Source: Clostridia bacterium (GTDB lineage Bacteria; Bacillota; Clostridia; Oscillospirales; CAG-272). Taken from it: a stretch of DNA of 34,087 nucleotides. The number at the start of each line of letters is the position of its first letter. Position 1 is the first letter of the stretch. The position numbers and the translations under genes are program-made. A model generated the notes under the pieces. That model ran no database searches and was not told the DNA's origin. It saw nothing but the letters and a program-made list of their open reading frames with translations. The stretch lies in assembly GCA_017453365.1 (NCBI GenBank), contig JAFTKH010000019.1, positions 1 to 34,087 on the forward strand, given 5' to 3'. Shown here piece after piece: positions 16,978-22,436 of this stretch.

Positions 16978-17002
16978 CAGTTATACGACAAATTAATATT
17001 AC

Positions 17003-17217
17003 GGATAGAGGCGCACTTAACAAAGAGTACCGTATGCACTATGGCCGCCACGGGCCGCTTACGGAAAAGGTGTAAGTGCCGAAGCGAGCGTTCGCGAGGC
17101 AGGACGCCCGGCTGGCAGTACGGATAACATCCGCCCTGCTGTCGCATTGTGCGAAGGGCTATCGTGCTGGGAATTTTTACGTTTTCATCTTGGGATAGCC
17201 GCGTCATCGGCTATCCC
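17003..17217 (+). promoter_or_regulatory. Lysine riboswitch (L-box) with terminator
   Basis: Conserved L-box pieces occur in order: GATAGAGGCGC at the 5' side of P1, GGAAAAGG, CCGAAGC (17079-17085), GCTGG (17111-17115), CTGTC (17139-17143) and GAAGGGCTATC closing P1. A terminator follows (GGGATAGCCG at 17192-17201 with CGGCTATCCC at 17208-17217, then ATTTTAAATTT). The GGCTATC strand that closes P1 can also pair with GATAGCC of the terminator, giving a readable antiterminator switch. Bound lysine should favour termination and shut off the dap operon. Confidence 0.94.
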
Positions 17218-21439: not shown

Positions 21440-21757
21440 CTATCTGCGTTTTTTACGTTTATCGAGAAGCTCGTTGATTTTGAGCTTTATTACTAGCTTG
21501 CTGCGTATTCTCTCATAGAGATTATCCGCCTCGGGAAATGGGAGAAAATCGCCGCCGACGCGCTCGCGAAACAGACGGTTCATTCGTTTTTTGTGGCTTT
21601 TACTTGGCGGCGGTAATTCCTTATCCTCGGACTTTTTCTCGAGCTCGCAGATTTTCGAGTCCATAGCTTCCGATAATGCCCGCTTAAAAAGCTCTTCTTC
21701 CCTGCCCTGCATATTTATTTTATTACTGTTATTATGTTTTTTACTGTTATTATCCAT
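21440..21757 (-). CDS. Small basic hypothetical protein
   Basis: This 105-residue, highly charged protein has an Asn/Lys-rich start, a helix REEELFKRALSEAMDSKI, the stretch SHKKRMNRLFRERVGG and a basic end (ELLDKRKKRR). There is no membrane segment. Its layout resembles the small Clostridia proteins found next to ECF sigma factors, but no sigma gene is present, so function stays open. The frame continues upstream to 21913, but that part lies in the structured RNA and is rejected. The ATG at 21757 follows GGGGGAAA. No separate promoter is visible between the RNA terminator hairpin and the gene. Expression may therefore depend on readthrough of the 21779-21993 RNA. Confidence 0.6.
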   Translation of the reverse strand: MDNNSKKHNNSNKINMQGREEELFKRALSEAMDSKICELEKKSEDKELPPPSKSHKKRMNRLFRERVGGDFLPFPEADNLYERIRSKLVIKLKINELLDKRKKRR

Positions 21758-21778: not shown

Positions 21779-21993
21779 AAAAACAAAAGATGCGCCAACC
21801 GGAGTCAGCGCACCGAAAAACACAAACCCCGATTGTCGCCAAACAAATCGAAAAGATATGGAAATATTATTCACATATACTGTCCGAGGAATTTGCGTTT
21901 TTACCAAATTCAAAAACAGTATATGCCTAAAAAGGGTATAGTATGCCCTAAAGACAAAACATTCCCATATATCAAGTATTCGATTTGTTTGGC
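21779..21993 (-). ncRNA. Structured RNA, copy 1 of a tandem pair (unknown family)
   Basis: The element lies downstream of its own promoter. A perfect 15-bp closing stem (21979-21993 with 21838-21852) encloses a short hairpin AGGG-N9-CCCT and an apical stem (21916-21925 with 21874-21883, 10 bp perfect). That stem carries an inner stem-loop with TTGGTAAAAAC. A 46-base 3' block (21791-21836) ends in a GC-rich terminator hairpin TGCGC/GCGCA and a T-rich tail. Copy 2 keeps all these stems with changed bases, so the structure, not the sequence, is conserved. It could be a free small RNA or a leader controlling the 105-residue gene. Confidence 0.65.
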
Positions 21994-21999
21994 TCTTCC

Positions 22000-22028
22000 A
22001 TTATATCACATTTTTTGTGTTTTGTAAA
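22000..22028 (-). promoter_or_regulatory. Promoter of structured RNA copy 1
   Basis: Minus strand: TTTACA (22028-22023), a 17-base spacer and TATAAT (22005-22000). The predicted start near 21993 coincides with the first base of the closing stem. Confidence 0.85.
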
Positions 22029-22127
22029 CATATTTTGCGAATTTTTATCCCATTACCTTCCGAGAGGTAGAGAAAAGTCTCCCCTTACCCGCTCCGGCGA
22101 AAGCTATGCAAAGCTAAAGCTTTCCCG

Positions 22128-22150
22128 AACCACCGGACGGACTGGTGGTT
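22128..22150. other. Isolated hairpin between the two RNAs
   Basis: AACCACC (22128-22134) and GGTGGTT (22144-22150) form a 7-bp stem followed on the plus strand by TTC. Nothing else is recognised between 22030 and 22190. Confidence 0.4.
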
Positions 22151-22191
22151 TTCAAACGAAGCTTTTTACATAGTCTTCGTTACTATACAAC

Positions 22192-22401
22192 AAAAAGTGC
22201 GCCAACCGAAGTCAGCGCACCGAAAAACACAAACCCCGATTGTTGTCACACAAACTAATCGGAATAGTAATATTCAGCCATACCCAAATTAGAGGAGCCT
22301 GTGTTTTTACCAAGTCCATAAATTTGAGTATGTGTAAAAGAGGGTATAATATCCCTATATGCAGAAAATACCCCAAATGCCGATTATTCAGTTTGTGTGA
22401 C
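22192..22401 (-). ncRNA. Structured RNA, copy 2 of a tandem pair (unknown family)
   Basis: This copy has the same architecture as copy 1. The closing stem (22380-22401 with 22245-22262, 18 pairs and a 4-base bulge) encloses the hairpin AGGG-N8-CCCT and an apical stem (22321-22332 with 22279-22290, 12 bp with one G-U). The inner loop TTGGTAAAAAC and the 3' block 22198-22243 follow; the block matches copy 1 at 45 of 46 bases. A terminator GTGCGC/GCGCAC with TTTTTG ends it. No open reading frame follows before copy 1, so this copy at least is a free-standing RNA of ~210 nt. Confidence 0.68.
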
Positions 22402-22407
22402 AATATT

Positions 22408-22436
22408 ATTTTATCACATTCTTCGCCATTTGTAAA
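22408..22436 (-). promoter_or_regulatory. Promoter of structured RNA copy 2
   Basis: Minus strand: TTTACA (22436-22431), a 17-base spacer and TAAAAT (22413-22408). The predicted start is at 22401, the first base of the closing stem. The layout is the same as for copy 1. Confidence 0.85.

Follow-up and report, generated by a model that had tools for sequence, protein, structure and literature searches.

The stretch of DNA that we analyzed (the window) is 34,087 nt of contig JAFTKH010000019.1, from a Clostridia bacterium of the order Oscillospirales. On its minus strand it contains two leader elements of about 209 nt each, copy 1 and copy 2, and TTTACA-N17-TAWAAT lies upstream of both (Table 1). 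A sequence-only reading of the window had described this pair, and we found both elements where it had placed them. It had also pointed out a 46-nt block at the 3' end, and 45 positions of this block are indeed identical between the two copies.

Behind copy 2 is a gene for a protein of 105 amino acids, which has no family in Pfam, NCBIfam, or PADLOC. The earlier suggestion that the elements are leaders for this gene is borne out for copy 2: the start codon is 28 nt behind the element, and relatives of the gene also lie behind the leader at other loci (51% identity over 68 amino acids at L140, 61% over 46 at L198, and 77% over 64 at L073). It does not apply to copy 1, which has no gene directly behind it: only copy 2 follows, with no gene before it.

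Both copies are predicted to fold far better than shuffled sequences. The minimum free energy (MFE) is -75.5 kcal/mol for copy 1 (z = -7.3) and -78.6 kcal/mol for copy 2 (z = -7.6), and none of 200 shuffles of either copy folded as well. This agrees with the conserved RNA fold that had been proposed.

Table 1. Features of the two leader copies and the gene behind copy 2 (bit scores are from covariance model R1)
Feature	Position	Strand	Basis or remark
Copy 1 promoter: TTTACA, 17 nt, TAAAAT, extended -10 TGTGA	22408..22436	-	same layout in most relatives
Copy 1 -35 TTTACA; -10 TAAAAT; spacer 17 nt	22436-22431; 22413-22408	-	sequence
Copy 1 leader RNA (predicted), from first P1 base through U-run	22193..22401	-	fold; 139 bits
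Copy 1 P1 5' strand	22390..22401	-	partner 22245-22256; fold, alignment
Copy 1 P1 3' strand	22245..22256	-	fold, alignment
Copy 1 P2 hairpin AGGG...CCCT, then U-rich run	22341..22356	-	by eye
Copy 1 strand M: apical hairpin loop and 3' side; pairs with block B over 15 bp	22294..22308	-	
Copy 1 block B: partner is M or, with CAAT in front, terminator loop and 3' arm	22223..22237	-	
Copy 1 putative antiterminator 5' strand CAATCGGGGTT	22232..22242	-	partner 22203-22213; MFE fold and swap test
Copy 1 intrinsic terminator hairpin and U-run	22192..22220	-	sequence, alignment
Copy 2 promoter: TTTACA, 17 nt, TATAAT, extended -10 TGTGA	22000..22028	-	sequence, relatives
Copy 2 -35 TTTACA; -10 TATAAT; spacer 17 nt	22028-22023; 22005-22000	-	sequence
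Copy 2 leader RNA (predicted), from first P1 base through U-run	21785..21993	-	fold; 134 bits
Copy 2 P1 5' strand	21979..21993	-	partner 21838-21852; fold, alignment
Copy 2 P1 3' strand	21838..21852	-	fold, alignment
Copy 2 strand M	21888..21902	-	pairing with block B
Copy 2 block B	21816..21830	-	pairing with M
Copy 2 putative antiterminator 5' strand	21825..21835	-	partner 21796-21806; MFE fold and swap test
Copy 2 intrinsic terminator hairpin and U-run	21785..21812	-	sequence, alignment
Gene for 105-aa protein behind copy 2	21440..21757	-	start codon 28 nt after model match end

Two other features of the window deserve mention. A lysine riboswitch (16998-17169, plus strand; 77 bits) is followed by a run of ORFs that we take to be lysine biosynthesis genes. 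Also, a near-palindrome, TACCTnnCGGAAGGTA, lies about 25 nt before the -35 box of copy 2 (22054-22069, minus strand) and recurs at L036, L051, and L008. We considered it as a general binding site and rejected it: a loose pattern occurs in 16 of 238 copies, with 17 matches against about 20 expected.

Membership and distribution of the leader class

At the gathering cut-offs of Rfam 15, the lysine riboswitch was the sole match in the whole window, and the elements had no match, including to the T-box, raiA, and riboswitch families. At E values of up to 10, the element region had six weak matches, all under their family cut-offs. The best of these was to STnc490 (22 bits versus a cut-off of 56) and is located between copies 1 and 2. 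We also scanned 20 loci with related copies at the gathering level, which gave six tRNAs and one Gut-1 RNA, and 15 loci with divergent copies at E values of up to 0.1, which gave three tRNAs; none of these matches is inside an element. The Gut-1 RNA (RF01706, 73 bits; L070, 1855-1931, plus strand) is upstream of a leader copy, on the opposite strand.

One option raised from the sequence was a 6S-like RNA. We rejected 6S RNA (RF00013) as the identity of these elements: its model had no matches in the window's own genome (52% complete) and was not among the weak matches in the element region, no Rfam cut-off was reached, and most copies adjoin a gene. The listings from a literature search contained no description of the leader RNA, which may still be among the candidates left unnamed in PMC8040213's human-microbiome set. 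So, wherever membership could be tested, the leader is an RNA class that matches no described family, and the initial failure to assign it to a known class stands. Transcription attenuators are already known; this leader class falls below every Rfam 15 cut-off, as do the divergent copies that were tested.

A Blast search with copy 2 gave a match in 32 of 59 related genomes. From 20 Blast-found sequences we built a covariance model, R1, which runs from the apical hairpin through the terminator. R1 matched 51 of 69 genomes from the genus, 83 of 247 from the order, and 64 of 293 from the class; in a draw from the phylum, it matched 2 of 398 genomes, both from the same order as the window. These counts are lower bounds because 7 to 46 candidates per genome were scored under strict filters.

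R1 found 8 copies in the window's own genome (52% complete) and 4 to 20 copies per genome across twelve genomes, namely the window's own and eleven that were picked mostly for having many matches. An exact match to the block motif occurs in at least 117 stretches. Among the matches listed, the 80 named records are metagenome-assembled, nearly all are named Clostridia, Oscillospiraceae, or Clostridiales, and many carry ruminant-gut labels. The window's tandem arrangement is real but is not a general trait, as another copy lies within 700 nt behind just 15 of 180 copies. Serial arrays of three to four leaders are present at L026, L163, and L170 (at L163, one leader runs off the end of the locus). 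A scaffold from human faeces that is labelled bacteriophage (L268; MT835503.1) also carries a leader copy, at 400-530 on the plus strand (78 bits). The two ORFs that follow this copy may encode a DNA methylase and a DUF262/HNH-type protein, which are possible defence genes under leader control.

Promoter, stems, and alternative helices

We placed P1, the long closing stem, in 229 of 238 copies (180 copies and 58 divergent ones). A -10-like hexamer precedes P1 in 222 of the 229, and it ends 4–6 nt before P1 in 186 of these 222. An extended -10 is present in 183 of the 222, and in at least 185 copies the best -35 match gives a spacer of 17 nt. Given where the -10 box is relative to P1, we predict that transcription starts on P1. 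This extends to most copies what had been noticed in the window, that the predicted start is the first base of the closing stem.

A start codon with a Shine-Dalgarno-like stretch is found within 60 nt behind the terminator in 137 of 180 copies, so the typical copy is 5' of and near the gene that it would regulate, as an attenuator should be. In the other 43 copies, the start codon is 61–320 nt away (15 copies), another copy comes next (14), the contig or locus ends (4), or none of these applies (10). We conclude that the element is a leader, with transcription predicted from P1.

P1 is a run of at least 13 pairs, by simple complementarity, in 142 of the 156 elements (out of 180) whose block could be parsed. 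We aligned full-length copies with MAFFT and counted pairs that changed on both sides. The alignment has 80 rows, which are those printed out of 83 copies picked for diversity and length from the 138 (of 180) with a placed P1. Such changes affect 9 of the 15 pairs of P1, 5 of the 9 terminator pairs, and 5 of the 7 pairs at the top of P3. Pairing in these stems was kept in 92% of cells, versus 33–47% if the partners were slid, and none of 500 shuffles did as well in compensatory changes, although related sequences may beat shuffles without any structure. The covariation that had been proposed from just two copies is thus upheld. The same counts agree with the picture from a smaller alignment (A11), which holds 68 of the 83 diverse copies (we removed 12 manually, following no criterion, and another 3 were not printed). 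In both alignments, many of the loci were chosen by the exact block motif. Another alignment, A10, covers 110 of 150 copies and contributed no counts.

Other parts of the leader are more variable. By eye, P3 varies widely in sequence outside the switching strand described below. Conservation of unpaired bases outside the switching strands is highest in an AUA bulge beside P1, and few other such bases are conserved. P2 (AGGG...CCCT and a U-rich run) can be seen by eye in copies of the window's type and not in short-type copies such as L232. In window-type copies (22341-22356, minus strand, and relatives), this hairpin and its U-rich tail resemble a weak intrinsic terminator or pause site midway through the leader.

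Strand M, the 3' side of the apical hairpin, can pair along about 15 nt with block B, which is just before the terminator; of the 20 rows compared for this complementarity, one (L009) was anchored at the wrong site. The loop TTGGTAAAAAC had been described as constant, which it is, but there is more to it than a loop, as the 3' side serves as a partner in this 15-bp long-range helix. Similarly, the conserved 3' block does end in a terminator hairpin, as had been claimed, but it contains a switching strand as well. Both sides of M:B changed at 7 of 15 pairs among the 20 Blast-found sequences and at 5 of 15 pairs among the 80 full-length copies, where 98.3% of cells were paired.

Because many of the aligned loci were chosen by the exact block motif, we repeated the test on 113 copies that we picked, without that motif, from R1 matches in the genus, order, and phylum searches. 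The energy of M:B averaged -17.7 kcal/mol with a copy's own partner and -14.8 with swapped partners, and none of 300 swaps was as good. The same is true of the window's genus (24 copies) and of a short subtype (22 copies), each taken separately. M:B reached -12 kcal/mol or better in 112 of 113 copies, a share that is inflated because R1, the source of these copies, itself scores the M:B pairs; the 20 Blast-found sequences are free of this bias. At the level of sequence, then, P1, the top of P3, the terminator, and M:B are established, along with the fixed promoter position and the leader position.

Block B has an alternative partner, the loop and arm of the terminator, with which it would form an antiterminator. 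In the 113 copies, the energy of this duplex was -18.1 kcal/mol with its own partner versus -15.2 with swapped partners, and again none of 300 swaps was as good. The antiterminator passed the swap test within the window's genus and in other genera, but it failed to reach significance in the short subtype (43 of 300 swaps were as good), and A11, the motif-biased alignment on which alone it was counted, shows no covariation for it. The nested MFE fold of both window copies contains the antiterminator, and nested folding of the 3' segment favors it in 80 of 113 copies and in 101 of 150. Among 40 copies without the usual arm motif, the duplex reached -10 kcal/mol or better in 39 (the weakest, at L110, was -8.7). 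L170 and L189 keep the duplex despite changed letters on one or both sides, and, by eye, so do L285, L280, L292, and L296. The putative antiterminator is supported, but more weakly than the other helices.

Mean energies are -17.7 kcal/mol for M:B and -9.1 for the apical hairpin; the 3' segment averages -20.9 when free and -16.8 with the terminator only. These values, which include no pseudoknot penalty, are near enough to one another to be compatible with a two-state RNA. In the short subtype, 18 of 21 copies (by a pattern that differs slightly from that of the swap test) give the 5' strand of the apical hairpin a choice of partner, either M or a strand further downstream, which suggests a chain of strand exchanges. 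Overall, the leader has the mutually exclusive terminator and antiterminator helices, with compensatory changes, that an attenuator should have; for the antiterminator, the short subtype and A11 are the exceptions.

Proposed control of the downstream genes

To see what the leader might control, we examined 145 of the 156 distinct proteins encoded downstream (set A9). The commonest Pfam matches were to zinc ribbons (8), BspA-type leucine-rich repeats (6), MazE/AbrB (6), and SHOCT (5), followed by DUF6809, LRR_8, and YpsA SLOG (4 each). PADLOC gave 26 families for the downstream proteins, and each of the 25 shown matches one member. We saw no common pathway among the downstream genes, so they do not suggest a ligand.

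We also compared 114 downstream proteins to 655 other ORFs from loci L079-L195 (all of at least 80 amino acids), using regular expressions rather than curated predictors. A lipobox was found in 30 of the downstream proteins versus 32 of the other ORFs; membrane-like runs, in 60 versus 147; and two or more CxxC motifs, in 27 versus 38. All three classes are enriched behind the leader and mark the putative regulon as rich in envelope proteins.

A small cysteine-rich protein recurs behind the leader (at L130, L134, L146, L150, L161, L204, L271, and others), and most of these proteins have a GNGEQGFECCCDECDY-like stretch. The protein at L073 joins such a cysteine-rich N-terminus to a C-terminal part that resembles the 105-amino-acid protein of the window; it has no Pfam match.

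We think that the cassette is probably a transcription attenuator, fused to its promoter, whose mutually exclusive helices control the gene behind it. The cassette would comprise a sigma-A-type promoter, a leader of about 210 nt (with P1 beginning at the first transcribed base), and an intrinsic terminator, with the start codon of the regulated gene usually about 15–60 nt further on. In the OFF state, M would leave the apical hairpin and form the 15-bp helix with B, downstream of P1; with B occupied, the terminator would form. In the ON state, M would stay in the apical hairpin, and B would be free to pair with the loop and arm of the terminator, so that RNA polymerase would read into the gene. 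A factor that stabilizes the rod of P1 and P3 and the apical hairpin would turn the gene ON. We would expect this trans factor to be a small ligand or an RNA-binding protein that is common to all copies. Here we infer the direction of control, the existence and identity of the signal, and such behavior of the transcripts in cells.

An unlikely alternative is that the elements form a family of small RNAs that act in trans, either like 6S RNA or as antisense RNAs, and that the gene behind is incidental or is reached by read-through. The promoter (in 222 of 229 copies), the terminator that is part of the model, the long rod-like fold, and the lack of a gene directly behind copy 1 would all suit a small RNA, and the 10 of 180 copies that are followed by no gene and no further copy count against an attenuator. 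But it is difficult to see why an RNA that always terminates would conserve helices that compete with its terminator. Also, RF00013 is absent from the window's own (incomplete) genome, in 137 of 180 copies a start codon is at most 60 nt away, and up to 20 copies per genome precede different genes. The same intramolecular competition argues against a reading that we find even less probable, a processive antitermination element like put or EAR RNA, in which the RNA rod would bind RNA polymerase and carry it past the terminator. In its favor, the predicted transcript start is at P1 in most copies and the terminator follows directly, but competition with that same terminator accounts for the conserved strands, and by eye the sequence of P3 varies widely outside the switching strand.

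Could the cassette be a mobile or repeated element that carries a promoter and spreads for its own sake? There are many copies per genome, 15 of 180 have close neighbors, and the genes behind them are unrelated. Still, most copies point at a gene and the helices covary across genera. We found no exact matches to the block pattern in viral contigs, no match to copy 2 in plasmids, and one partial match (L268) in a phage collection. We rejected mobile-element spread as the main cause and consider this reading very improbable. A leader-peptide attenuator, in which ribosome stalling would set the fold, we dismiss almost entirely. Some copies do have a start codon in the apical region (as seen in ORFs of the window), but a Shine-Dalgarno-like stretch with an open frame of at least 8 codons was found in 30 of 113 leaders, as compared to a mean of 30.9 for shuffled leaders, which gives no sign of a conserved translated upstream ORF. 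Single-base insertions and deletions also separate the switching strands of different copies (L017).

Returning to the attenuator, we read it as an orphan and riboswitch-like, apparently serving envelope and small cysteine-rich proteins. A bolder version, which we put forward tentatively and would rate at slightly below an even chance, is that this is a class-wide family of orphan switches in which promoter and switch are inseparable. RNA polymerase would start on P1, and termination would be decided by successive strand exchanges (S3-S1-M-B-terminator in the short subtype). Up to 20 cassettes per genome, all sensing one signal, would make an RNA-based global regulator of envelope and small cysteine-rich proteins. 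If this is true, then the cassettes would behave as a sigma-factor regulon does, but with no dedicated promoter sequence.

Comparison with known leader RNAs

To our knowledge, few RNA classes are so abundant per genome and so widespread. Comparable classes sense a central signal: tRNA charging for T-boxes, or c-di-GMP for its riboswitches. 6S RNA, like the leader, folds into a long rod-like hairpin, is of about the same length, and has its own promoter. The leader differs from 6S RNA (RF00013) in that it does not match the model, adjoins genes, has a terminator that is wired into the fold, and is present in many copies per genome. Tandem riboswitches have aptamers in series within one leader. 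The leader resembles them where two to four copies are in series (the window, L026, L163, and L170), but each window copy has its own promoter.

Further parallels are in Clostridia. In PMC11477304, c-di-GMP riboswitches (class I, or GEMM, and class II) are described as mostly transcriptional and as preceding scattered genes, including genes for surface functions; 12 of class I and 4 of class II are predicted in Clostridium difficile 630. They are like the leader in having many copies per genome before scattered genes. The leader differs in that it has no Rfam match and its predicted start is at +1 of a fixed promoter. PMC11477304 also lists 26 T-boxes in C. difficile, which bind tRNA and control amino-acid genes; T-box leaders share with ours the multiple copies and the choice between terminator and antiterminator. 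The leader has no match to the Rfam T-box, and the genes behind it encode envelope proteins, zinc-ribbon proteins, and small proteins without an assigned function. We propose that the leader works like a riboswitch or T-box leader.
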